A stretch of DNA of 64,000 nucleotides from contig JAFTCB010000028.1 in assembly GCA_017454905.1 (NCBI GenBank), positions 1 through 64,000 of the forward strand, read 5' to 3'. Below, piece by piece: positions 31,278 to 44,560 of this stretch. Position 1 is the stretch's first letter; every line of letters begins with the position of its first letter. Under the pieces are notes generated by a model. It did no database searches. It was not told the origin of the DNA and was given only the letters and a program-made list of their open reading frames with translations. Origin of the DNA: Bacteroidales bacterium (GTDB taxonomy: Bacteria > Bacteroidota > Bacteroidia > Bacteroidales > UBA932). A program made the translations under genes and the position numbers.

Positions 31278-31676
31278 ATGGCAGAAAACAAACCCCGCTA
31301 TTCAGATGCAGAACTCGCCGAGTTCAAGGCGATTATCGAAGAAAAACTCGCCAAGGCCAAAGCCGAGTACAACACGCTCCGGCAGGTCGTGATGCACAAC
31401 GGCACCAATGACATTGAAGATACGACTCCCTCTTTCCGTACGGTCGAGGATGACGGCGCTTTCCAACTCTCCAAGGAGGAGGCCAGCCAGATGGCCCAGC
31501 GCCAGTACAAGTTCATCCAGAACCTGGAAGCAGCCCTGATCCGTATCGAGAACAAGACCTACGGCATTTGCCGCGTGACCGGCAAACTGATCCCCAAGGA
31601 GCGGCTCCGCCTGGTGCCGCACGCCACGCTGACTGTTGAGGCCAAGGAAATGCTCGCCAAGCAAGGGAAGAACTAG
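31278..31676 (+). CDS. DksA/TraR-like protein without the zinc-finger cysteines
   Basis: 132 residues. The coiled-coil part (about 10-90) and C-terminal region follow the TraR/DksA layout (IENKTYGICRVTGKLIPKERLRLVP), but only Cys98 of the usual four zinc ligands remains. The family binds the RNA polymerase secondary channel and works with ppGpp on transcription. A cysteine-poor finger is common in this phylum, so the gene is probably functional. It lies 13 bases after ileS and 1 base before lspA. Confidence 0.87.
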   Translation: MAENKPRYSDAELAEFKAIIEEKLAKAKAEYNTLRQVVMHNGTNDIEDTTPSFRTVEDDGAFQLSKEEASQMAQRQYKFIQNLEAALIRIENKTYGICRVTGKLIPKERLRLVPHATLTVEAKEMLAKQGKN

Positions 31677-32258: not shown

Positions 32259-32266
32259 GTGTTCCG

Positions 32267-32351
32267 CGGAGGCGGAGGGATTCGAACCCCCGGAACGTCG
32301 CCGTTCAACAGTTTTCAAGACTGCCGCCATCGACCACTCGGCCACACCTCC
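32267..32351 (-). tRNA. tRNA-Ser (anticodon UGA)
   Basis: 85 nucleotides. The acceptor stem GGAGGTG pairs with CGCCTCC (one G-U) and the discriminator is G. The anticodon stem-loop reads CTTGAAA with UGA at 34-36. The long variable arm expected of class II tRNA-Ser is present (GAACGGCGACGTTC) and the T-loop is GTTCGAATC. CCA is not encoded. Confidence 0.95.
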
Positions 32352-32396: not shown

Positions 32397-34478
32397 CTAT
32401 GCGTTGATTCTCTTTGTCAGGTGCAGGACGTTCTTGCCCTCCGCACGCTCATAGTAGACATTGTCCATGATGTTGCGGACCAGGTAGAAGCCCAGGCCGC
32501 CGATATTCTTCTCTTCGAGCGGCTGGTTGATATCCACGTCCTCGATCTGGGTCGGGTCGAACGGCACGCCGGCATCGGTGATGATGAAGTGGACGGTGCT
32601 GTCGCGGAGGATGGCCTCGACGTCCACGGTGCCCTCGGTTCCTTCCGGATACGCATAGAGGATGGCATTGACCACGGCTTCCTCCAGGGCGAGGTTGAGG
32701 TTCATCGCCATCGCCTGGCTGATGCCCGTCTCGTGGGCGATGTCTTCGATGAAATCCGCCAGCTGCGGGATCTCCTTGATATCGTTCTGCAGTGACAGGT
32801 GGAGGTCCTTGCGGTCGCCCGCGTAACCCAGGTACTTGATGCAGAGCATGGTCAGGTCGTCACTCTGCGGGGCTTCCTGGACATGCTGGTGCACGGATTC
32901 GATGACGCTTGCAACCTGCTCTTTGGCGCTCAGGGCCGCAATCTGCCGGGTGGCATCCTCCAGCTGCTGGTCGCCGAACAGTTCCTTCCGGACATTCTCC
33001 GCTTCGGTAAGGCCGTCCGTGAAGAGGAACAGCGAACTGTCTTGCGGGATGAAGTGCTCCTGGGTGGAGAATTTGATCCCGTCGATGACGCCCAGCGGCA
33101 CGTTGGCATCCACGTCCAGCGGCCGGGAATCGCCTTCGGTCAGCAGCAGGGGGGCGTTGTGCCCGGCATTGCTGTAGCGCAACTGGCCGTTGTGCAGGTC
33201 CAGGATACCCATGAAGAAGGTGACGAACATGTTGGTCTCGTTGCCTTCGGATAGGGCGTCGTTGATGTGGGTGACGATGCGTCCGGGATTGGACTCATGC
33301 GCAGCGGTGCTGCGGAACAGGCTGCGGGTGACCGCCATCACGAGCGAGGCGGGGATACCCTTGCCGGAGACGTCGCCGATGCAGAAGAAGAGGCGGTTGT
33401 CTCTCAGGAAGAAGTCGAACAGGTCGCCGCCGACTTCCTTGGCGGGCGTCAGGGAGCCGTACAGGTCGAGGTCGGCACGGTCCGGCGGCGTCGGGAAGGT
33501 CTTCGGGAGCATCGCCATCTGGATGGCGCTGGCGATTTTGAGCTCGCCTTCGATTTTCTCCTTGGAGTCATTGGCGTCCTTGAGCCGGCGCAGGTGGAGG
33601 GCCGACCGCCAGATGATCAGGATGAGCAGCAGCAGGCCGACGATCTGCATCAGGGCGACGATCCCGCCGATCTTCTTGGCGTGGCGCAGGACTTCCTCTT
33701 CGGGGATGACGATGGACATCTTCCAGCCGGTCTTGTCCATCAGGGTATCATAGCGCAGGACGTTCGGGATGGCGAGCGTCTCGGCCGGACAGGCCATCAT
33801 CGTGCCTTTCCGGCTGGTGAGGGTGCTGTAGGAATCCGGATACAGTTCGATGCCTGTGATCAGTTCGGTCAGCCAGGCGAGGGAGACATCGGCGGCCATG
33901 GCTCCGATGACGGCCCCGGAGGCGTCCCGCAGCGGCGTGGCGAAGGTGACGACCATCGTGCGGCCGCCGTCCTCGTCGTAGTAGGGCTCGCTCCAGAAAT
34001 CCTGGCCGGTCTGTGTGACGGCCGTGAACCAGTCCGACTTGAGATAATCATGGCTTTCGGATCCGAGGACCAGTTCTTCATATCCGTTCGTCCGCCGTGC
34101 GAGGATGGGCTCGAACCAGCGCCCTTTTTCCGGATAAAAGTCCGGTACGAATGCCGCAAAACCGTCCAGCACATGGGGATTGCTGTCCATCATCCGGCGG
34201 AAGACTTCGGAGAACTCCTCCGGCTTGTCCAGCATGCCTTCGAGGATCCAGGCGGTATTGACGGTGGCGGACTCGACGGAACCGGTGATCTTCTCGATCT
34301 GCAGCTTGCTGACGGCGAGTTCGCTCTCGGCCCGGCGGTTCGCTTCTTCGCGCAGGCCTTTCTTGGTGAAATGATATTGCAGGATGGAAGTGGCTTCCAG
34401 CAGTACGGCGGCCGTGACGAGCAGGGTGAGGCCCTGCAGGGCATAGACGCGGCGGAAAGTATCTTTGATTGAGGCCAT
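32397..34478 (-). CDS. Membrane sensor fused to SpoIIE-type PP2C phosphatase and anti-sigma-like kinase
   Basis: 693 residues. A transmembrane helix (about 13-33) is followed by a periplasmic dCache-like sensor (about 36-275: SDWFTAVTQTGQDFWSEPYYDEDGG), then a second helix (about 276-298). A cytoplasmic SpoIIE/PP2C domain follows (about 320-540: GSLTPAKEVGGDLFDFF, CIGDVSGKGIPASL, FLFTDGLTEAEN), and a C-terminal RsbW-like HATPase domain (about 565-690; N-box LEEAVVNAILYAYP). This joins in one chain the phosphatase and kinase of a partner-switching circuit (RsbU and RsbW types). No STAS anti-anti-sigma gene is visible. It is the last gene of the alarmone operon, 6 bases after the APH-like kinase gene. 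Confidence 0.85.
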   Translation of the reverse strand: MASIKDTFRRVYALQGLTLLVTAAVLLEATSILQYHFTKKGLREEANRRAESELAVSKLQIEKITGSVESATVNTAWILEGMLDKPEEFSEVFRRMMDSNPHVLDGFAAFVPDFYPEKGRWFEPILARRTNGYEELVLGSESHDYLKSDWFTAVTQTGQDFWSEPYYDEDGGRTMVVTFATPLRDASGAVIGAMAADVSLAWLTELITGIELYPDSYSTLTSRKGTMMACPAETLAIPNVLRYDTLMDKTGWKMSIVIPEEEVLRHAKKIGGIVALMQIVGLLLLILIIWRSALHLRRLKDANDSKEKIEGELKIASAIQMAMLPKTFPTPPDRADLDLYGSLTPAKEVGGDLFDFFLRDNRLFFCIGDVSGKGIPASLVMAVTRSLFRSTAAHESNPGRIVTHINDALSEGNETNMFVTFFMGILDLHNGQLRYSNAGHNAPLLLTEGDSRPLDVDANVPLGVIDGIKFSTQEHFIPQDSSLFLFTDGLTEAENVRKELFGDQQLEDATRQIAALSAKEQVASVIESVHQHVQEAPQSDDLTMLCIKYLGYAGDRKDLHLSLQNDIKEIPQLADFIEDIAHETGISQAMAMNLNLALEEAVVNAILYAYPEGTEGTVDVEAILRDSTVHFIITDAGVPFDPTQIEDVDINQPLEEKNIGGLGFYLVRNIMDNVYYERAEGKNVLHLTKRINA

Positions 34479-34484
34479 TGTATG

Positions 34485-35327
34485 TTATTTGAGGATGGGG
34501 TCGAGCGCGACGCGGAATTCGGGCATCGGGCACCGGGTGTCCCGCTCGACGATCAGGGTTTTGAGGCCGGCATACAGCCGGACTTCCGCTTCCAGGGCTT
34601 CCAGGTCGGCATCCGGGCCGAAATATGCCGGGGCGAACGCCTTCCAGAAAGCGCGGGCGGTGTCCTTCTCCATGTGGAAGACCTCGCGGATGAAGTCGTC
34701 CCCGCTGAGGTTGCAGCAGAGATAGACCATGCCGAGGTCGAACATCGGATAGCCGTAGCAGAAGTCGCCCAGGTCGATGAAATAGCGCTTCCCGCCGGCG
34801 AAGATGGCATTGCTGTACTGCAGGTCGCCATGGATGGCGGTGTCCGCATCCGGCGCCTGCCGGATGAACGCGGCGAGTTTCTCTTTCTCTTCGGGGGTGA
34901 AGAAGGGATTCTGCTCCAGCAGGCGGAAGTACCGGTCCTTGACGTTCTCGAACAGGGCGGTGTCCACGCGGGTGGCGTGCAGCTGGCGGCACATCTGTGC
35001 GAACTCGGCGGCGTATTCCGCTACGCGGGAAGGGTCGTCCCCGACGGCGCGGGAAAAGGACTTCTTACCGGAGATGCGGCGGAAGCGGATGCCGATACGC
35101 TCCCCGTCCGTGACCAGTTCGCCGGGTTCGGGGGTGGGGATGCCTATGGCATAGACCTTCTGCGCGACAAGCAGCTCGTCCAGCGCCTGTTCCCCCTTGC
35201 CGGGGTTGTAGAGCTTGATCATCACGTCCGGGTCGGACTTGTGGTTGTAGCTGCTGCCGTTGGCGCCTTCTCCGGCATAGTCGTAGTCGGCCAGGTCAAT
35301 CCGGACCGGTTGGGGAGCTTCTTTCAT
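34485..35327 (-). CDS. APH-like small-molecule or protein kinase (TIGR02172-like)
   Basis: 280 residues from the ATG at 35327, which follows the HD gene stop in the string TGATATG. The protein-kinase-like/APH fold is clear: a Gly-rich loop (GEGANGSSYNH), lysine in VMIKLYN, the catalytic loop H166-G-D168-L-Q-Y-S-N173 and the metal site IDLGD (D185/D188). It resembles the uncharacterised TIGR02172 paralogue family. Substrate is unknown; the operon suggests a signalling role rather than antibiotic resistance. All catalytic residues are present, so it should be active. Confidence 0.75.
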   Translation of the reverse strand: MKEAPQPVRIDLADYDYAGEGANGSSYNHKSDPDVMIKLYNPGKGEQALDELLVAQKVYAIGIPTPEPGELVTDGERIGIRFRRISGKKSFSRAVGDDPSRVAEYAAEFAQMCRQLHATRVDTALFENVKDRYFRLLEQNPFFTPEEKEKLAAFIRQAPDADTAIHGDLQYSNAIFAGGKRYFIDLGDFCYGYPMFDLGMVYLCCNLSGDDFIREVFHMEKDTARAFWKAFAPAYFGPDADLEALEAEVRLYAGLKTLIVERDTRCPMPEFRVALDPILK

Positions 35328-35328
35328 A

Positions 35329-35907
35329 TCAATGCTTGAAAACTTGGTCAATCAGGTCCGAGAATTCACGGTAGGCGGCGGTGCCGGACAGCTCGGAGAG
35401 CGAGCCGGCCAGACCGCGGTAGTGCCATTCGTGCTCTTTCTTGTCTTTGGTGTGGAAGAGGTTCCAGATGGCGTCGCCGATCTCTTCGTAGTCGCGTGCG
35501 ATGGCGCGCATGTTGGAGAGCTTGTCTCCCAGGGCGACGATCTTGGAGTCATGCGGGGCCCGGGCCAGGCGGTCGATGGCGGCCTGCTTGCGGGCGTGCC
35601 AGGAAGCTTCTTCGGAGAGGTGCGCCATCGGGTCGTCGCTCTCCGCTGCGACCATCTCCGCAATCCGGTCGCCGAATTCCCGGCGGAGGTCCTCCACGGT
35701 CCGGTCCGTGTCTTCAATCACGTCGTGCAGGATGGCGGCTGCCAGGATCTCCGGGTCCGGCGTGATGGTGGCGACGATCGCCGCCGCTTCCATCGGGTGG
35801 AGGATGTAGGGGAATCCCTTGCCGCGCCGTTCGGTCCCGGCGTGCGCTTCGATCGCGTAGCGGGCGGCCCTGTCAAACAGGGCGGTATCCAGGGGTTTGT
35901 TGGCCAT
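35329..35907 (-). CDS. HD-domain (p)ppGpp hydrolase (MESH1/SpoT-type)
   Basis: 192 residues. The complete hydrolase set is visible: H37 in YILHPMEAA, H61-D62 in AILHDVIEDTD with E65-D66, and D128 in LGDKLSNMRAI. This is the pattern of stand-alone small alarmone hydrolases, which remove the 3'-diphosphate from (p)ppGpp using manganese. The ATG overlaps the stop of the cytidylate-kinase-like gene (TAATG). Its pairing with a synthetase-only protein two genes upstream suggests a balanced alarmone module. Confidence 0.85.
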   Translation of the reverse strand: MANKPLDTALFDRAARYAIEAHAGTERRGKGFPYILHPMEAAAIVATITPDPEILAAAILHDVIEDTDRTVEDLRREFGDRIAEMVAAESDDPMAHLSEEASWHARKQAAIDRLARAPHDSKIVALGDKLSNMRAIARDYEEIGDAIWNLFHTKDKKEHEWHYRGLAGSLSELSGTAAYREFSDLIDQVFKH

Positions 35908-36563
35908 TACGCGTTGTGCTGGATGTATTTCAGGATGAGCTCGACGGCTTCGTCCTCGGAGAGGTTGTCGACGTTCAGGCTGAGATCATAGTTGCGGGCA
36001 TCGTAGCGGGAGACGCCGGCATAGCGCTGGATGTAGTTGTCGCGGCCTTCTTCCACGGAGGCGATGACGGTGCGGGCCTCGGTCTCGCTGAGGTGCTGCT
36101 TGCGCATCACGCGCTCGACGCGGTGCTCCAGGGAGGCGTGGATGAAGATGTCCGTCCGGTTGGGGTGGTCCTTCAGCACGAAGAACCCGGAACGGCCGGC
36201 AATCACGCAGGATCCCTCCTCCGCGAGTTCGCGCAGGATCTCGGATTCGGCGGCGAAGATCTCATCGGAGGTCGTGTAATGCGGGATGTCCGTCTCGCTG
36301 AAGGCCGCGCTCGTGCCGAACAGGGCGCCGGTCGTCGGGACGGGAGCGACCCGCTCGATGAAGTCGGAGAGCCAGTTCTTCTTTTTCGCCTTGATGTTCT
36401 CGATCTCGAAGGTAGTCAGGTTGAACTTCTCCATCAGGCTGTGGATCAGGGCCTTGTCGCAGTAGCGGACGCCGAGGCGCTCGGCTAGTTTCCGTCCGAT
36501 GGTGCGGCCGCCGGAGCCCAGCTCGCGGCTGATGGTGATGATGAATTTCTGTTGCGTGTCCAT
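35907..36563 (-). CDS. Cytidylate-kinase-like P-loop protein
   Basis: 218 residues of the Cytidylate_kin2 family. The P-loop is SRELGSGGRTIG near 12-23 and the LID-like region is RVERVMRKQHLSETEA. The NMP-binding part differs from true Cmk, so the phosphate acceptor is unknown. It starts 1 base after the synthetase stop and shares TAATG with the HD gene. Such proteins are often found alone; placement between alarmone synthetase and hydrolase suggests a related nucleotide substrate or a regulatory ATPase role. Confidence 0.8.
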   Translation of the reverse strand: MDTQQKFIITISRELGSGGRTIGRKLAERLGVRYCDKALIHSLMEKFNLTTFEIENIKAKKKNWLSDFIERVAPVPTTGALFGTSAAFSETDIPHYTTSDEIFAAESEILRELAEEGSCVIAGRSGFFVLKDHPNRTDIFIHASLEHRVERVMRKQHLSETEARTVIASVEEGRDNYIQRYAGVSRYDARNYDLSLNVDNLSEDEAVELILKYIQHNA

Positions 36564-36564
36564 A

Positions 36565-37653
36565 TCAAATCAATTTCAGGTTTTCTGCTTGAGAATAGAT
36601 CATTTCCGCGAGGGTGGCATTCCCGCCGGATTCGCCGTTGATGCTGTTGAACAGGGCCGTCAGTCCCGGCTTGCCTCCGCCGTTGCGCAGGATTTGGACG
36701 ATGCAGAGGTTCTGCAGCGCCACGGCGGAAGTGATGATGTCGATGTCGGTTACGCCAAGTTGGTAGGAAGCGAGCTTGTAGGCGTCTTCCCGGCAGTCGC
36801 GGACCATCTTGTCGATGTCTCCGAGCGTCGTCATCCCCATGCCCCTGAGGATGGGGAGATAGCGCTGCAGCGACACTTCCTGAATCTCTGCCTGGTTGAG
36901 GGCGGCGATGCGGCGGTTGAGGGCGTCGAACGGCTGCAGGGCGAGGTAGCTCTTGAACGTGTCGCCGTCCAGGGCGACATCGTCCAGATGCCCGTCGGCG
37001 ACGAGCGACTGCACCCGGCGGCGGTAGTCGGTGATGCCGGAACGGATGAGGCAGAACTGCTCGTCGGTCAGTTCCAGCATGCCGGCCAGGCGGTTCATCT
37101 GGCGGAGATACTCCTTGGGGATCTCCACGCCGGACTTGTAGCCCGAGTCGTGGTAGAGGGTGGCCCAGACGTGCTGCAGGGAGGTGCGGATCTGGATTTC
37201 GAAGCGGATCTCGTTGAGCCGCGGGAACTCCTTGTCCGAGTACAGGCTCGGGGGGATGCTGCAGATGAAGTGGAGGGAATTGTAGCCGAAGCTGTCCAGC
37301 TGGTGCATCTTGCGCTTGTCCACCGAGTTCTCCCGGTCGATGATGAAGAGGTTCTCCACCATGGCGGCGATCTTGTCCACGTCGTCGCTGTAGAACGTGA
37401 TCACGCGGGCGCCGAGCAGGTCGGTGATGTCGGTCGCGGCAGTGTATTTGGCGCCCTTGAGCTCCAGTTTGCCCGCCAGGCTCTTTTCCTCCTTGACGCG
37501 GGCCTCCGTCGCCGTGACCATCAGTCCCTTGGCTTCGATGTCCTTGCGCAGGATATCCAGGACAAGGTCTTTCATCTTGAGCAGGGTGGGACGCAACTCG
37601 CGGTATTCCTCCAGCAAAAGGGAACAGTGCAGATCCAGACCGTAATTCTCCAT
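36565..37653 (-). CDS. RelA/SpoT-domain alarmone synthetase with C-terminal extension
   Basis: 362 residues. The N-terminal 180 residues form a RelA/SpoT nucleotidyltransferase domain: R52 and K57 in ARVKEEKSLAGK, D78 in TDITDLLGARVI, Y124-N-S-L-H128, and E152-I-Q-I-R156-T. It lacks the hydrolase, TGS and ACT domains of long Rel, so it is a small alarmone synthetase making (p)ppGpp or pGpp, or, in the toxic branch, modifying tRNA ends. The C-terminal 170 residues (about 190-362) are helical and unrecognised. It is the first gene of a five-gene minus operon, with a promoter box at 37672. Confidence 0.85.
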   Translation of the reverse strand: MENYGLDLHCSLLLEEYRELRPTLLKMKDLVLDILRKDIEAKGLMVTATEARVKEEKSLAGKLELKGAKYTAATDITDLLGARVITFYSDDVDKIAAMVENLFIIDRENSVDKRKMHQLDSFGYNSLHFICSIPPSLYSDKEFPRLNEIRFEIQIRTSLQHVWATLYHDSGYKSGVEIPKEYLRQMNRLAGMLELTDEQFCLIRSGITDYRRRVQSLVADGHLDDVALDGDTFKSYLALQPFDALNRRIAALNQAEIQEVSLQRYLPILRGMGMTTLGDIDKMVRDCREDAYKLASYQLGVTDIDIITSAVALQNLCIVQILRNGGGKPGLTALFNSINGESGGNATLAEMIYSQAENLKLI

Positions 37654-37671: not shown

Positions 37672-37679
37672 CAAATATA
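37672..37679 (-). promoter_or_regulatory. -7 box (TATATTTG) of the alarmone operon
   Basis: Lies 19 bases before the synthetase ATG. Only this one promoter-like site was found for the five-gene unit; a -33 match is not clear. Confidence 0.55.
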
Positions 37680-37804
37680 CATTTTTCAGCGTCAAGTTGA
37701 AAGATGCCGGCTGAAAAAATGATTCCGGGGGGACTTGAACGGAAATTGGAACAAAATGACGGATAGACGGAAAAGGCGGAAACCCCCGGACGGGGAAATA
37801 TTCC

Positions 37805-37838: not shown

Positions 37839-40373
37839 ATGACCCTGCGTAAACGCTTCTTTGCCGCCGGCCTCTCGTTGCTGGCGCTGTGTGCCTCCGC
37901 CCAGGAGGCGGTCCGCCTGGACATTGACACCCGCCACATCGACGGGCACATCGATCCGCTCATCTATGGGCAGCTGTTCGAGCATATCTATTTCTCCGCC
38001 AACAATGGCGTCTGGCAGGAGATGATTTACGGCCGTTCTTTCGAACCGGAACATTATCCCGGCATCCCTCCGCGTGACGGCTATTTCGACGGATGGTTCG
38101 CCGACGGGGAAGGCGTCCTGCATTCGCCCACCCGCTATGAGCAGCCCATCCCCCTGACGGAGTTGGATACGGATAGCTACGATATCGAAATGGATGTCGC
38201 CTGGCGAGCTTACCGCCTGCCCGGCCGGCGCTGGAGCGGCGGTCTGCTGGACCTGCGTTTTGCCTTCAAGGACCAGGCGGACGGGGAGCCTTATTTCCTG
38301 CGGCTCTATGATCCCGCCTTCGAGGGGCAGCGGTTTTCCCTGGCCCAGACGCAGTCCCAGATCGAGGCGGACAACCAGGCCAAGGCGCTCGCGCAGGCCC
38401 AGAAGCAGGCTTCCAGCGCCGAATTCTCCATCGCCACACGCGTGGAGAAGGAGGTCCCCTCCTTCGGAGGCCGCACCCGCAGGGTCATCGCCCTGGATCC
38501 GCTGGTGACGGCGCGGGCGCGGGCGGAGCAGACAGACCAGGCGGCGTGGCACCACGTCAGGATCAGTTGCCGCGGCCGTCGGGTGACCGTCTGGTGGGAC
38601 GGCCGCCGGCTGCTCTCCAAGACCCTTCCGACCGGGCGCAGGCACAACGCGGTCACCCTTTGGGAAAACTATACCGAGGCGCGTTTCCGCAACATCCGCA
38701 TCCTCTCTGCAGATGGCAGGCAGACCTTCTTCGAAGGGCTTCCGGAGCAGGTGGCCCTCCCCGACGTGGCGCCGGAATGGACTGCCTTCGGCGATGCCGT
38801 TTTCCGCTTGGTCAAGGGCAATGCGGTCAATATGGACTACGCTCAGCAAATCAGTGCCCGGGGGCTCTCCGGATTGCAGCAGGGACCGCAGCCCGTCCGT
38901 CCGGGCGAGGTTTTCGTCGGTTCCGTGTATGCTCGCGGCGACGGCCGGGCCCGGCTCAGCGTAGGCCTGCGCCATGGCGGGGAATGGGTGGTCCGGAAGT
39001 CGCTGGGCTGCCCGTCGCCGGACTGGCAGTGCTACGAATTCACCCTGGACGGAGGTGCATGGGAAGGCGATGCGGATTTCGCCATCGCGGCAGAAGACGG
39101 CACTTTGGTGATCGACCAGGCCTCGATGGGTACCCGTTCGGGACAGGCGCTCGGCGGCTTCCGGCCGGATATTTTCCAGGCAGTCAAGGACTTGCATCCG
39201 ACCTGCCTGCGCTGGCCGGGCGGCGGTTATGCCGCACAGTATGACTGGCGCTGGGGGATTGGTCCGCAGAAGGACCGCCGCCGCTGGGATCACTGGATGT
39301 GGCTGGACTATGACCAGAACTGCTTCGGCACCGATGAATTCATCCGCTTCTGCCGCGAAATCGGCTCCGAGCCGGTGATCGTGGTGAGCGTCGGCTTCGA
39401 GCGGCCGGAGTCTGAATACGATGAGATCCTGCAGAATGCCGTGAACTGGCTGCGCTACTGCAACGAGCCCGCTACGGGCGAGTGGGGTGTGGTGCGCGCT
39501 GCGAACGGCCATCCCGAGCCCTATAACGTCAAGTACTGGGAGATCGACAACGAGATGTGGGAGATGGGCATCGACCGTTACGAGCGCTGCGTCCGTGACT
39601 TTTCCACTGCCATGCGTGCCGTCGACCCGTCCATCCGGATCATCGCCTGCGGCGGGTTCCAGGAGGACGAAGCCTTCCTGAACCGTTCCGGCCGCTATTT
39701 CGACTACCTGAGCTTGCACCACTATGAGCAGGCCGGGGGGTATGCCGCCGGGCCGGAACGCCTTGCGCAGCAGTACCGGCGCTATGCGGACATGATTGCC
39801 GCCTGTCCCAACCCCAACATCAAGCTGTTCATTTCCGAGTGGAATCTCAACAGCACCGACTGGCGCACGGGCCTGTTTGCCGGCGGCTTCCTGAATGTCT
39901 GCGAACGCAGCGACGTAGTGGCGATGGGCGCCGCCGCACTCTTCATCCGGCGGACCGATGCTCCTGACTGGAACAATGCCTTCATCAATTTTGACTACAA
40001 GGATCTCTTCGTCGCTCCGAATTACCAGGTGACAGAACTCTGGTACGACCACTATTCGCCGTACCGGCTCGCATTCAAGGGGGAATGCAAGGAGTTGAGC
40101 GTCCTCGCCACCCTGGCACAGAACGGCGGCAGCGTCGTGGTCAAGGTCGTCAATCCTTCCGAAAAAAGCTATACACTGACGCTCGCGGGAAATTGGGGAC
40201 CGCTCTCCGGAGCGGAATATGAGTATTTCGCACCCGGCTCGCTGGATGCCGCCAACGACATGCAGCACAAGCAGGCAGTCGCACGCCGCAGGAAAACGCT
40301 GCAGGCCGGAAATGATATCGTCACGCTCACGCTGGAGCCACTGTCCGCAGGGGTCGTGACGCTGTACAGATAA
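37839..40373 (+). CDS. Secreted GH51 alpha-L-arabinofuranosidase
   Basis: 844 residues. A signal peptide is cut near ASAQ (22). The N-terminal part has GQLFEHIYFSANNGVWQEM, diagnostic of GH51. A long insertion (about 110-330) contains a carbohydrate-binding/LamG-like sandwich with an Ala/Gln-rich coiled stretch (about 168-190). The catalytic acid/base is E572 in WEIDNEMW and the nucleophile E667 in FISEWNLNS. GH51 removes arabinofuranosyl groups from arabinan and arabinoxylan. It stands alone between a divergent operon and a strong terminator. Confidence 0.93.
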   Translation: MTLRKRFFAAGLSLLALCASAQEAVRLDIDTRHIDGHIDPLIYGQLFEHIYFSANNGVWQEMIYGRSFEPEHYPGIPPRDGYFDGWFADGEGVLHSPTRYEQPIPLTELDTDSYDIEMDVAWRAYRLPGRRWSGGLLDLRFAFKDQADGEPYFLRLYDPAFEGQRFSLAQTQSQIEADNQAKALAQAQKQASSAEFSIATRVEKEVPSFGGRTRRVIALDPLVTARARAEQTDQAAWHHVRISCRGRRVTVWWDGRRLLSKTLPTGRRHNAVTLWENYTEARFRNIRILSADGRQTFFEGLPEQVALPDVAPEWTAFGDAVFRLVKGNAVNMDYAQQISARGLSGLQQGPQPVRPGEVFVGSVYARGDGRARLSVGLRHGGEWVVRKSLGCPSPDWQCYEFTLDGGAWEGDADFAIAAEDGTLVIDQASMGTRSGQALGGFRPDIFQAVKDLHPTCLRWPGGGYAAQYDWRWGIGPQKDRRRWDHWMWLDYDQNCFGTDEFIRFCREIGSEPVIVVSVGFERPESEYDEILQNAVNWLRYCNEPATGEWGVVRAANGHPEPYNVKYWEIDNEMWEMGIDRYERCVRDFSTAMRAVDPSIRIIACGGFQEDEAFLNRSGRYFDYLSLHHYEQAGGYAAGPERLAQQYRRYADMIAACPNPNIKLFISEWNLNSTDWRTGLFAGGFLNVCERSDVVAMGAAALFIRRTDAPDWNNAFINFDYKDLFVAPNYQVTELWYDHYSPYRLAFKGECKELSVLATLAQNGGSVVVKVVNPSEKSYTLTLAGNWGPLSGAEYEYFAPGSLDAANDMQHKQAVARRRKTLQAGNDIVTLTLEPLSAGVVTLYR

Positions 40374-41297: not shown

Positions 41298-41402
41298 AAT
41301 CCCTCACTCACCTGCGGCGGGCTTTGCAATAAGCCATCAAAAAACTGCGTTCAAGCAAGTTGACGCAGTTTTTTGCTACCTTATTGCGGTGAGTGAGGGA
41401 TT
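41298..41402. repeat. Inverted copy of the tRNA-Ser 3' end forming a long hairpin
   Basis: AATCCCTCACTCACC at 41298-41312 is the exact complement of 41388-41402, which is the T-stem/acceptor end of tRNA-Ser(CGA). Inside, GCAATAAG (41326-41333) pairs with CTTATTGC (41380-41387), and the terminator stem (41339-41350 with 41363-41374) nests within. The 15-bp match is the size of a typical tRNA-end attachment core but lies in opposite orientation. Confidence 0.7.
41338..41375. terminator. Terminator of tRNA-Ser(CGA)
   Basis: A 12-bp stem AAAAAACTGCGT / ACGCAGTTTTTT with a 12-base loop; T-runs on both strands make it bidirectional. It lies 12 bases past the tRNA 3' end on the minus strand. Confidence 0.85.
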
Positions 41403-41471
41403 CGAACCCCCGGTACGTTGCCGTACACCTGTTTTCGAGGCAGGCTCCTTCAACCACTCGGACAACTCACC
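41387..41471 (-). tRNA. tRNA-Ser (anticodon CGA)
   Basis: 85 nucleotides. Acceptor stem GGTGAGT pairs perfectly with ACTCACC; discriminator G. The anticodon loop is CTCGAAA (CGA). The long variable arm (TGTACGGCAACGTACC) identifies a class II serine tRNA. CCA is not encoded. Confidence 0.95.
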
Positions 41472-41574: not shown

Positions 41575-41874
41575 ATGAGGAAACTGATCTTTTATCTCCT
41601 GTGTCTTTCTTTTTTGTTTATTCCCTGGAGCGGTGGCGCGCAGAGCCGGGCCCGGGCGGAAGCGCTCTCCCTTGCCGTGGATAAGGACCTGACTGCTGGC
41701 ATCCTGCCCTTCTGGCTGGAGCATGCCGTCGATCCGCAGGGCGGTTTCTACGGTGCGGTGTCGGATGAAGGCAGCGCCGGTTCGAATTCCGTCTCGCAGC
41801 GCCTGCCTGTCGAGGGCGGCCGTGTCTCGCTGGACCTGCCTGCAGAAAGTTTTGTCAGTATCTTCGTCCGTTGA
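41575..41874 (+). pseudogene. Chimeric remnant: sugar 2-epimerase start joined to a hydrolase-like end
   Basis: A 99-codon open frame. Residues 1-22 are a signal peptide (PWSGGAQ). Residues 24-67 read like the N-terminus of an N-acylglucosamine/cellobiose 2-epimerase (AGE) barrel (LPFWLEHAVDPQGGFYGAVSDEG), which should continue for about 350 residues. Instead, after residue about 70, the chain ends with VEGGRVSLDLPAESFVSIFVR, resembling the last strand of the beta-sandwich that closes many secreted glycoside hydrolases. The simplest reading is an in-frame deletion that removed most of an epimerase gene and all but the end of a following hydrolase gene. Its stop lies 2 bases before the GH9 ATG. 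Confidence 0.65.
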
Positions 41875-41876
41875 AT

Positions 41877-44411
41877 ATGAAACACCTTACCCTTTTCTCT
41901 GCGTTCCTGGCTGCGCTTGCCGCTATGGCCGGCACCGTCCGGCTCGATGCTCAGGATTTCCACCTCAACGCTTCCGGTTATTTCAACAGCGGGGGCGTGG
42001 ACGTGATGGCGTTCAATGACTTCTATCCCGAGGGGCACCAGGGCGGCATCTCCATCCTGATGCACGGCAAGCGGGTCGCCAGCAACGGCGACATCCGCTT
42101 CGAACCGACGCCGGGCCAGTGGCAGCCCGTCCCGAAGCAGCTCGGCCGCAAGGTCCTGGAGGACCGCATCGTGACGACGCTCTGCTATCCCGACTCCAGC
42201 CGCCACCTTACGGGGTTCAACCCGATGATCTATCCGGACGTGCAGCTTACCTACGAGGTCACGCTGGAGCCTTCCGGCCGGGGCTTTCTCGTCACGGTGA
42301 ACCTGGACCGGCCGGTGCCGGAGGCGTTGGCGGGACGCGCCGGGTTCAACCTGGAATTCTTCCCGGGCGACCTTTTCGGAAAGCCGTGGATCATGGATGA
42401 GCGGCAGGGCATCTTCCCCCCGCAGCCGAATTCCCCGCTGCTCACGCAGGAAAGCTATGTGTACCGGAGCGTCGGCGATTTCAAGCCGGAAGGCGCCCCG
42501 GAGGCTGACGTGAAGCACCTCATCGGCGAAGGCTACAGCCCTTTCACGGCGGATGCCGTCATCGCCGAACCTTATGCCGCAGGCAAATCTTTCACCCTCC
42601 GGCCGGACGACCCGTACAGCCGGCTGACCATCCGGAGCCTGACCGACGCGCCGCTCAAGCTCTACGACGGCCGGATGAACCACAACAACGGCTGGTTTGT
42701 CCTCCGCTCGGATATCCCCGCCGGCGCCACGAAGGGCGCCGTCAAATGGTATATCGAGCCGAACGTCGTCCCCGGCTGGACCAGCCGTCCGGTCGTGCAG
42801 ACCTCGCAGGTGGGTTATCTGCCCGCGCAGCGGAAAGTGGCGATCATCGAGACCGACCGACGCGACGCTCCGCTCCCCGAGGCGGCGCTCTACCGCTTCG
42901 GCCCGGACGGGGAGCAGCTCGTGCAGCGTTTCCCTGCCGTCCGCTGGGAGGGGGAATTCCTGCGCTACACCTATCTGAAAGTGGATTTCTCCGACATCCG
43001 TGAGGAGGGGCTCTACCAGGTCCGCTACGGCGGCAGCAGTTCGCCTGTCTTCCGGATCGCCGCCGATGTGTACGACCGGGGCGTCTGGCAGCCGGTGATC
43101 GAGTACTTCCTTCCGGTGCAGATGTGCCACATGAAGGTGATGGAGAAATACCGCGTCTGGCACGATGCCTGCCACCTCGACGATGCGCGGATGGCGCCGC
43201 CCGGCAACCATATTGACGGCTACGTCCAGCCGGCGGACAACGGCACGCGCTTCCGCGCCCTTGAACCTGTCCCCGGGGTCAATGTGGGCGGCTGGCATGA
43301 TGCGGGCGATGATGATGTGCGCCACACCACCGGCAATGAGTGCTATATCCTGACGATGGCCTGGGAGGCATTCCGGCCGGAGATTGATGCCACGGCCATC
43401 GACCAGGCGCGCCGCCTCGTGGAGATCCACGAGCCTGACGGGCGCAACGACATCCTCCAGCAGATCGAGCACGGGATGCTGTACGCCGTGCATACCTGGC
43501 AGGCCCTCGGCCGCTTCTCCAAGGGGACCATCACCAATAACCTGCGCCAGTACACCCTGCTCGGCGACACCTCGACGATGTCCGACGGGATTCTGGGGAA
43601 TGAGGATGACCGGTGGATTTTCCCGGACACGGGGGACGGCGTCGGCGCCGCGGTCAACCTGGCTGCCTCCGCCCGCGCCCTGCGGGGCTTCAACGACACC
43701 CTGGCGGCCCGTTGTACGGAGATCGCCCGGGAGACTTTTGCCCGCGCTGAAGCTGCGGGCGGCCGTCCCATAAGCCGGATGCAGCTGGCTGTCGAACTGT
43801 ATCTGACCACCGGGGAGCCGGTCTATTTCGACTTCATCCTCGGTCACTGGGATGCCGTGGTCGCCGCCGTGGGGAACTGCGGCTGGTACATGGCGCGGGT
43901 AGAGAAACAGATGGAGGGGCAGCGGAAGTACCGCAAGCAGTGCGCTGCTTTCCGGGAGGCCCTGCTGCAATACCGCAGCGCCCTTGACCGCATGAGTGCG
44001 GAGACGCCGTACGGGGTACCTTACCGGCCGAGCATCTGGGGTGCCGGGTGGGACATCCAGTCCTTCGGTTATCGCCATTATTTCCTGGCCAAAGCCTATC
44101 CGGACATTTTCTCCCCGGATCAGGTGATGGATGCCCTGCATTTCATCCTGGGCCGGCATCCCGGGTCCAATCAGGCTTCGTTCGTGGGCGGTGTGGGGGC
44201 CGAGTCCACCACGGTGGGCTATGGCCTGAACCGGGCCGACTGGTCCTATATTCCGGGCGGAACGGTCTCCGGGACGGCCCTGATCCGGCCGGACTATCCG
44301 GAGCTGCTGGTGTTCCCGTATCTGTGGCAGCAGGTGGAGTATGTGCTTGGCGGCGGTTCGTCGCATTATATGTTTCTGGTGCTGGCTGCACGGGACCTGG
44401 CGGGGATCTGA
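41877..44411 (+). CDS. Secreted GH9-family glycoside hydrolase
   Basis: 844 residues from the ATG at 41877 (MKHLTLFSAFLAALAAMAG, signal peptide); a TTG two codons earlier is unlikely. An N-terminal sandwich of unknown type (about 30-290) precedes a CelD-like Ig domain (about 300-385: QTSQVGYLPAQRKVAII) and an (alpha/alpha)6 GH9 barrel. The barrel has GGWHDAGDDD (aspartates from D475, the catalytic base region) and LGRHPGSNQASFVGG near the C-terminus; the general acid is probably a glutamate in the last 50 residues. GH9 enzymes are mainly endoglucanases, with some exo-acting beta-glucosidases. Substrate is uncertain. A tRNA-Val promoter follows the stop within 20 bases. Confidence 0.87.
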   Translation: MKHLTLFSAFLAALAAMAGTVRLDAQDFHLNASGYFNSGGVDVMAFNDFYPEGHQGGISILMHGKRVASNGDIRFEPTPGQWQPVPKQLGRKVLEDRIVTTLCYPDSSRHLTGFNPMIYPDVQLTYEVTLEPSGRGFLVTVNLDRPVPEALAGRAGFNLEFFPGDLFGKPWIMDERQGIFPPQPNSPLLTQESYVYRSVGDFKPEGAPEADVKHLIGEGYSPFTADAVIAEPYAAGKSFTLRPDDPYSRLTIRSLTDAPLKLYDGRMNHNNGWFVLRSDIPAGATKGAVKWYIEPNVVPGWTSRPVVQTSQVGYLPAQRKVAIIETDRRDAPLPEAALYRFGPDGEQLVQRFPAVRWEGEFLRYTYLKVDFSDIREEGLYQVRYGGSSSPVFRIAADVYDRGVWQPVIEYFLPVQMCHMKVMEKYRVWHDACHLDDARMAPPGNHIDGYVQPADNGTRFRALEPVPGVNVGGWHDAGDDDVRHTTGNECYILTMAWEAFRPEIDATAIDQARRLVEIHEPDGRNDILQQIEHGMLYAVHTWQALGRFSKGTITNNLRQYTLLGDTSTMSDGILGNEDDRWIFPDTGDGVGAAVNLAASARALRGFNDTLAARCTEIARETFARAEAAGGRPISRMQLAVELYLTTGEPVYFDFILGHWDAVVAAVGNCGWYMARVEKQMEGQRKYRKQCAAFREALLQYRSALDRMSAETPYGVPYRPSIWGAGWDIQSFGYRHYFLAKAYPDIFSPDQVMDALHFILGRHPGSNQASFVGGVGAESTTVGYGLNRADWSYIPGGTVSGTALIRPDYPELLVFPYLWQQVEYVLGGGSSHYMFLVLAARDLAGI

Positions 44412-44479: not shown

Positions 44480-44554
44480 AGGGGCGTAGCTCAGTTGGTT
44501 CAGAGCGCTTGAGTCACATTCAAGAGGTCATCGGTTCGACCCCGATCGTCCCTA
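44480..44554 (+). tRNA. tRNA-Val (anticodon CAC)
   Basis: 75 nucleotides. Acceptor AGGGGCG pairs with CGTCCCT (one G-U); discriminator A. The D-arm is GCTC/GAGC, the anticodon stem CTTGA/TCAAG holds the loop GTCACAT (anticodon CAC, preceded by U33), and the T-arm is ATCGG/CCGAT with loop TTCGACC. G at position 32 is unusual. CCA is not encoded. Confidence 0.85.
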
Positions 44555-44560
44555 CCGAGA

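Follow-up and report, generated by a model that had tools for sequence, protein, structure and literature searches.

What does a membrane sensor with phosphatase and kinase domains control when it is encoded in one operon with an alarmone synthetase and a hydrolase? The question is raised by five genes in a 64,000-nucleotide stretch of DNA from a Bacteroidales bacterium (assembly GCA_017454905.1, contig JAFTCB010000028.1, positions 1 to 64,000), here called the window. They encode a single-domain RelA/SpoT synthetase with an extra C-terminal domain (SYN), a cytidylate-kinase-like protein (CMK), a protein of the small alarmone hydrolase type (HD), an APH-fold kinase (APH) and a sensor composed of PDC, SpoIIE-type PP2C and RsbW-like HATPase domains. 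Usually, control of guanosine tetra- and pentaphosphate, (p)ppGpp, is described in terms of starved ribosomes, protein partners of the long RelA/SpoT homologues (RSHs) and transcription of the small synthetases. Comparison of related loci points to another input. SYN is linked to a small STAS protein, and we consider it probable that the operon belongs to an alarmone module controlled by a partner switch, in which the sensor would set STAS phosphorylation, STAS would act on SYN and HD would reset the signal.

A STAS protein accompanies the synthetase

Gene order was compared in 71 loci (the window, L034-L083 and L084-L103), or 70 after removal of L082, which is at least 95% like L062. The query used to collect the loci was SYN itself, hence its conservation is given by construction, while that of its neighbours is not. 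Near SYN a protein of ~100 amino acids (aa) recurs, which Pfam assigns to STAS (two members scanned) and which matches SpoIIAA, RsbV and their relatives in the PDB over its length. In 55 of the 70 loci its gene is on the SYN strand and at most 8.5 kb away, the distance being at most 1.5 kb in 39 and at most 80 bases in 29; with 14 loci shorter than 12.5 kb, all linkage counts are lower bounds. Over the same 8.5 kb and on the same strand, an RsbW-like domain is found in 52 loci, PP2C in 34, HD in 37, APH in 22 and CMK in 7. By group, STAS lies near SYN in 51 of 62 Bacteroidales loci, in all four Bacilli-like loci (three titled Bacilli or Bacillales, and L079) and in none of four Fibrobacter loci, all of which have HD beside SYN. 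Ser55 is invariant in 27 aligned STAS sequences and aligns with what we take to be the phospho-serine of SpoIIAA and RsbV.

The window genome contains the parts of a partner switch: PP2C, an RsbW-like HATPase both in the sensor and as a separate copy beside STAS, and a single-domain STAS protein encoded outside the window. This single STAS match (G000:C19:25366-25662, motif YISSSGLR) lies on a different contig from SYN and is flanked by an RsbW-like gene and a gene for a fused substrate-binding protein and permease (SBP-permease). In the relatives L036, L037 and L038 there is likewise exactly one STAS match each, located directly before SYN, which argues for relocation and not for loss; the STAS relay seems to have moved in the window's subclade. 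Generally, all 15 loci without STAS come from genomes with STAS elsewhere (11 genomes, and G000, G013, G046 and G056). Some genomes are counted twice: in L034, one of the 11, STAS is found where it is in G014, and the two probably represent a single genome. An RsbW-like gene adjoins STAS in 9 of the 11. In seven of the 11, which are Bacteroidales-type genomes, STAS scores at least 127 bits; in the four from Fibrobacter it scores only 98-100 bits, in the range of paralogues. Homologues of the SBP-permease (32% and 41% identity) lie one gene from SYN in L087 and adjoin HD in L099, a weak pointer that the SYN locus of the window and the STAS locus on C19 belong together.

The STAS locus itself (L114:7954-11192) is a row of genes for an RsbW-like kinase, STAS, the SBP-permease fusion and an ATP-binding cassette (ABC) ATPase, possibly an amino-acid importer under the same switch.

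The first-pass annotation, made from the window sequence, had proposed that an envelope signal is converted into a nucleotide messenger. This idea stands insofar as co-occurrence in the genus and gene order tie the sensor to synthetase and hydrolase; the STAS relay was missed because its gene is on another contig in this subclade.

Co-occurrence and joint descent

In a sample of 61 genomes of the window's genus, STAS was present in all 31 genomes with SYN and in 3 of the 30 without it (Fisher p 2.6e-14, uncorrected for kinship and missing contigs). One of the three, G059, has a short contig with part of APH, the sensor and STAS, and in the other two STAS is encoded beside another PP2C protein. 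Across the order, the 1.5-kb flanks of eight full-length SYN genes besides that of the window held STAS in five cases and HD in all eight. At 21 other RelA/SpoT-core loci of the order, neither STAS nor RsbW nor PP2C was found in flanks of 1.5 kb or less (Fisher p 0.0005 for the contrast); this control covers 21 of 26 other places, those with loci, and some contigs end inside 1.5 kb. Flanks of up to 4 kb around 54 SYN relatives on viral contigs likewise contained no STAS, RsbW, PP2C or HD.

The distances in the SYN and STAS trees correlate (r 0.67, n=67), and none of 2000 permutations gave a value as high. Within the class to which one of the Fibrobacter genomes belongs, a STAS match scored at least 85 bits in 41 of 43 genomes with SYN versus 11 of 58 without, a contrast confounded by kinship, for which the threshold was set after the scores had been seen and G929, with a partial SYN match, was counted as lacking SYN. 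In six genomes of this class (G854, G857, G892, G893, G909 and G933), STAS and SYN share a strand and are no more than ~4 kb apart.

Catalytic core and C-terminal domain of the synthetase

The RelA_SpoT domain (PF04607) covers residues 52-175 of SYN. In the PDB, the core matches RelP and RelQ structures with E values of 2.6e-18 to 4.6e-17, up to profile position 210, while the CapRel structure matches with an E value of 0.0018, over profile positions 40-219 only. Across 48 aligned sequences, window SYN included, residues D78, R83, K113, R114, Y124, H128 and E152 show no variation. This pattern fits an active synthetase with a presumed guanosine acceptor, given the catalytic roles that we take these residues to have. 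With a synthetase domain, conserved catalytic residues and no HD domain, SYN resembles the small alarmone synthetases, but with 362 aa it exceeds the matched RelP and RelQ chains of 209-255 aa. Two more RelA_SpoT proteins are encoded in the window genome (frames of 736 and 737 aa, one with an HD match), so SYN is an additional synthetase.

Profile positions after 210 are not matched by RelP or RelQ. The corresponding C-terminal domain has 13 invariant positions in 27 aligned sequences and gave neither a Pfam family nor a convincing PDB match, in line with the first-pass annotation, which had left it unassigned. A TPR domain was rejected, with no TPR among the Pfam matches of the 27 C-termini up to an E value of 1, and a PUF4 match (E 0.004 over 59 positions) was not used. 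We propose that this part is a regulatory domain responsive to STAS.

Relatives of SYN occur on contigs titled Bacteroidales, Prevotella, Candidatus Cryptobacteroides, Fibrobacter and Bacilli or Bacillales (50 loci). Besides the 31 of 61 genomes of the genus, full-length SYN was found in 9 of 393 genomes of the order, the window's own included, and SYN in 43 of the 101 Fibrobacter-class genomes, in one with a stop and in one in two pieces. With the C-terminus as query, a single hit among 395 genomes of the phylum was obtained, in the window's own genome. Full generality of SYN across the phylum is rejected by these phylum and order samples.

Hydrolase and accessory kinases

HD matches the HD domains of SAH, Mesh1 and Rel proteins in the PDB. 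Residues H37, H61, D62, E65, D66, D128 and N132 are invariant in an alignment of 17, and we take them to be the metal-binding and catalytic residues of SAH/Mesh1 proteins. A stand-alone HD_4 domain with these residues conserved, as in small alarmone hydrolases, agrees with the complete hydrolase recognized at first pass.

HD and SYN lie within 80 bases of each other in 30 of the 70 loci. Among genomes G000-G036 of the genus sample, an HD orthologue of at least 100 bits was found in 21 of 22 genomes with SYN versus 1 of 15 without, counting split copies in G024 and G026; in G018, HD and SYN share a contig, ~50 kb apart. At 33 loci no HD is encoded on the SYN strand. The genomes of 30 of these were searched (all except L062, L087 and L090), and 23 had no HD match above 85 bits, weaker matches being confined to long proteins or short pieces. 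As STAS was present in all 30, SYN and STAS form the core, with HD a common addition. HD is frequent and not obligatory, and CMK is peripheral.

APH belongs to TIGR02172, above the NCBIfam cut-off, and its translation contains the sequences HGDLQYSN and IDLGD, presumably the kinase motifs of this fold. HD and APH form single frames of ~466-488 aa in five of the 71 loci (L036, L037, L060, L070 and L073), in L150-L153 and in four Fibrobacter-class loci (L193 and L196-L198). These fusions suggest that APH acts on or with HD. A defence-system reading of the operon was dropped, PADLOC giving only a core match of SYN to PDC-S33 and a weak pVip-kinase match of CMK.

Proposed mechanism and rival explanations

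In the proposed mechanism, the membrane sensor would read an outside signal via its MCP-like PDC domain (residues 90-205 in Pfam). Its PP2C and RsbW-like domains would set the phosphorylation of STAS, probably at Ser55; PDB matches of the sensor include Rv1364c, RsbW, SpoIIAB and PDC-type sensor chains. In the window genome, the unlinked STAS would be the working partner, and the second RsbW-like kinase encoded beside it may help. One form of STAS would bind SYN, most likely via the C-terminal domain, and this would start (or stop) the production of a guanosine-type alarmone. HD would hydrolyse the product and thereby reset the signal, with APH probably tuning HD.

Several observations weigh against this reading. 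The window's own SYN locus has no STAS gene. The co-occurrence counts are phylogenetically non-independent, and many of the genomes are incomplete metagenome-assembled genomes. SYN and HD distances correlate as strongly as those of SYN and STAS (both 0.67, n=34 for HD), so this is not specific for STAS, and the value of 0.67 hence shows joint descent and not contact. In Fibrobacter, SYN nests among the SYN proteins of Bacteroidales (support 0.45 to 0.8), and the STAS proteins are of another type and mostly unlinked. Joint inheritance of SYN and STAS is therefore improbable in this group, and SYN and HD seem to have moved into Fibrobacter without STAS; co-inheritance of SYN and STAS everywhere is rejected. 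Furthermore, some related PP2C-RsbW-STAS operons lack SYN, the gene after STAS encodes a Na/H exchanger or an ABC permease in part of the loci, making transporters possible targets, and adjacency of SYN and STAS alone could reflect mere co-expression.

The last points are what would be expected if the switch controls a transporter, a sigma factor or a LuxR-type regulator, with SYN and HD sharing only its regulon or neighbourhood. In agreement with this, a gene from a cluster with a LuxR-type (GerE) member (one member scanned) follows SYN in several loci. The transporters are few, however (the exchanger in 8 of the loci searched, the permease homologue in 4), whereas the STAS-SYN association is general. 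Among the Sigma70_r2 matches listed for 21 genomes, with short contigs included and places compared by eye, none was closer than 10 kb to the SYN-associated STAS, and a sigma-factor output is not favoured. We regard another target of the switch as unlikely. The switch might also act on HD or on HD and APH, so that breakdown of the alarmone is regulated and not its synthesis. HD, APH, sensor and STAS are encoded together in G056, on a different contig from SYN, the L040 genome has a PTP-STAS-HD row that is likewise on another contig, and the HD-APH fusions point in the same direction. The persistence of STAS with SYN in 23 genomes without a dedicated HD match makes this a very improbable explanation.

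The first-pass annotation had also considered a toxin-antitoxin couple, in which SYN would be a toxSAS-like toxin and HD an antitoxin hydrolysing its product, the sensor and kinases being bystanders or later additions. The close spacing and the genus-wide co-occurrence of SYN and HD fit such a pair. By score, the proteins closest to SYN outside its clade are encoded by lone genes on viral contigs and phage-plasmids, a usual place of defence genes, and PADLOC lists SYN, by its core only, as the candidate-defence protein PDC-S33. An obligate antitoxin is not expected to be missing from 23 of 30 genomes that all contain STAS, and by structure matches the SYN core is nearer to RelP/RelQ than to CapRel, although long RSHs could substitute for HD and an antitoxin could be fused to SYN as its C-terminus. 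The idea is weakened by these two findings and retains the link to phage contigs; we consider it quite unlikely. Control of SYN by the partner switch remains the reading that we favour.

Two side observations concern other outputs of such switches. A second PP2C-RsbW-STAS set (G110:C25, L147) has a Sigma70_r2 match ~4 kb away and is unlike the SYN-associated STAS. The Na/H exchanger gene directly follows STAS in L116 (L116:10441-11943), L102, L118 and L126, and the L116 copy, which was scanned, contains a TrkA_C domain.

Phage-borne relatives and origin

The 54 SYN relatives on viral contigs (L261-L314) are mostly in frames of 320-405 aa, and phrog_9640, a family of unknown function, matches SYN residues 25-349 with an E value of 1.1e-58. 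Viral-contig proteins score up to 258 bits with the SYN profile, versus at most 136 bits for 21 other Bacteroidales loci, and the SYN C-terminus is weakly shared with them. Seven viral relatives have one common row of neighbours in the direction opposite to the synthetase, which we take to be tail genes, and in a Bacteroides finegoldii phage-plasmid the SYN relative is opposite in direction to annotated head and terminase genes. The viral-contig synthetases are candidate superinfection-exclusion genes. A distant relative (31% identity) is also the largest listed gene, annotated as hypothetical, of a 3.5-kb Klebsiella pneumoniae plasmid (L316).

A tree of 156 sequences unites all 82 SYN proteins of the module in one clade with a support of 1.0; the trees leave out L082, L073 and 3 of the 54 viral loci, with a SYN part of 250 aa or less. 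This clade groups with 24 viral, 2 plasmid and 1 other sequence with a support of 0.498 in the unrooted tree, and the phage genes are therefore nearest by score and not by firm phylogeny. Tentatively, and with the direction unpolarised, a chromosomal PP2C/RsbW/STAS switch may have taken over a self-inhibited synthetase whose closest outside kin by score are lone phage genes, in many cases together with a hydrolase dedicated to it. In Bacteroidales of gut and rumen, in Fibrobacter and in some Bacilli, an envelope signal would then reach the alarmone without passing through the ribosome or the long RSHs, and STAS would be the physiological ligand of the C-terminal domain, as the capsid protein is for CapRel.

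Operon layout and genome setting

The coordinates of the operon are listed in Table 1. The first-pass description of five tightly packed genes of these folds is confirmed by the reading frames and by Pfam and NCBIfam. In the order SYN, CMK, HD, APH and sensor, the junctions are a 1-base gap, a 1-base overlap, a 23-base overlap and a 6-base gap. APH may alternatively start at an ATG 24 bases inside the TTG start, which turns its junction with HD into a 1-base gap. The site before SYN is a plausible single promoter for the operon and is close to the Bacteroidota consensus.

Table 1. Features of the SYN operon and its products (positions in the window)
Feature	Position	Strand	Basis and remarks
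SYN, single-domain RelA/SpoT synthetase with extra C-terminal domain	36565..37653	-	362 aa; reading frame, Pfam
C-terminal domain of SYN, residues ~206-362 (~157 aa)	36565..37038	-	no known family
CMK-like kinase (Cytidylate_kin2)	35907..36563	-	218 aa; PF13189, E 4.8e-48
HD, small alarmone hydrolase type protein	35329..35907	-	192 aa; HD_4, E 4.7e-21
APH-fold kinase, TIGR02172 family	34485..35351	-	288 aa from TTG; APH, E 3.8e-19
Sensor, PDC + SpoIIE PP2C + RsbW-like HATPase	32397..34478	-	693 aa; Pfam
PP2C (SpoIIE) domain of the sensor	32832..33401	-	PF07228, E 1.6e-51, residues 360-549
RsbW-like kinase domain of the sensor	32412..32786	-	PF13581 (HATPase_c_2), E 4.9e-24, residues 565-689
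Promoter-like site upstream of SYN, TTTC-N19-TATATTTG, Bacteroidota-type	37672..37702	-	sequence read

Among the relatives, L035 has the identical gene order, L037 and L097 have it with a STAS gene added, and L034 follows it up to the contig end; since relatives keep this order, the operon is more than a chance arrangement. The condition set at first pass, that related genomes keep the five genes together, fails for this exact set, as CMK, HD, APH and PP2C are all on the SYN strand in only 4 of the 70 loci (the window, L035, L037 and L097, L034 being cut by its contig end).

The window genome comprises 2.42 Mb in 62 contigs and is 82% complete. Directly downstream of the operon lies tRNA-Ser(TGA) (32266-32351, minus strand); farther off are tRNA-Ser(CGA) (41386-41471, minus strand) and tRNA-Val(CAC) (44480-44556, plus strand). 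About 0.7 kb past the operon end, between genes resembling ileS and lspA, is a gene for what appears to be a TraR/DksA-type zinc-finger protein (31278-31676, plus strand); DksA-type proteins are partners of ppGpp. The gene at 37839-40373 (plus strand) is divergent from SYN, with its start 185 bases away. Together with a second long gene (41871-44411, plus strand), it presumably encodes a secreted glycoside hydrolase.

Comparison with known systems

A literature search returned no STAS partner switch linked to an alarmone synthetase among the best matches listed, by titles and abstract openings. In a review on STAS-only proteins, a term search finds neither ppGpp nor alarmone (PMC8256260). PMC10212131, a review on (p)ppGpp and heat shock, describes the SigB switch of Bacillus subtilis, which (p)ppGpp may help to activate; this is the opposite direction.

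Precedents exist for the enzymes. As described in the available sections of PMC10434055, a ~180-aa C-terminal domain brakes the synthetase Tde-SAS (DsRel) of Treponema denticola, and the hydrolase Tde-SAH (ActSpo2) is separate; hence a C-terminal brake and a split synthetase/hydrolase pair can work. The C-terminus of Tde-SAS consists of TPR, whereas that of SYN has no TPR match, which sets SYN apart from the DsRel (SAS-TPR) type. The locus tags TDE1711 and TDE1690 suggest non-adjacent Treponema genes, and those sections mention no partner switch. CapRel, a fused toxSAS and prophage synthetase, has a C-terminal domain that autoinhibits the enzyme and senses a protein partner, according to PMC9712102. 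It serves as a model for the action of the SYN C-terminus; no sequence relation between the two C-termini was found, and SYN is linked to STAS and often to HD. RelP and RelQ have the catalytic core in common with SYN, which adds the C-terminal domain and the linked partner switch. The phrog_9640 synthetases match SYN over nearly its full length, but stand outside the SYN clade and without STAS, RsbW, PP2C or HD nearby (none of 54). The proposed mechanism would give a testable function to the unexplained C-terminal part that they share with SYN.

The closest likeness in logic is found in Pseudomonas aeruginosa. In the HptB-HsbR-HsbA-HsbD system, too, a phosphatase/kinase protein determines whether an anti-anti-sigma protein, HsbA, is phosphorylated. 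Binding of HsbA to the diguanylate cyclase HsbD varies with this state, HsbD preferring the phosphorylated form, as PMC5085249 reports. Its outputs are the diguanylate cyclase and FlgM, whereas here the output would be a RelA/SpoT synthetase, often with a hydrolase, under a PDC-type membrane sensor. SiaABCD is alike in that a binding partner activates an enzyme making a nucleotide messenger: SiaC activates the diguanylate cyclase SiaD through the SiaD stalk (PMC8457831, in the part available). That part of the article describes cyclic di-GMP (c-di-GMP) as output and mentions no alarmone enzyme, whereas the enzyme linked here is a RelA_SpoT protein and not a diguanylate cyclase, and the window sensor reaches 44.9 bits with the SiaA model, far under the cut-off of 700. 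Each piece of the module is known, and the kind of control is known for c-di-GMP; what is new, as far as the literature listings show, is an alarmone synthetase as the proposed output of a partner switch. If true, a partner switch based on Ser/Thr phosphorylation would be a new input to a dedicated alarmone synthetase in rumen and gut bacteria, and a candidate output for partner-switch proteins without a sigma factor gene nearby, among the matches listed.

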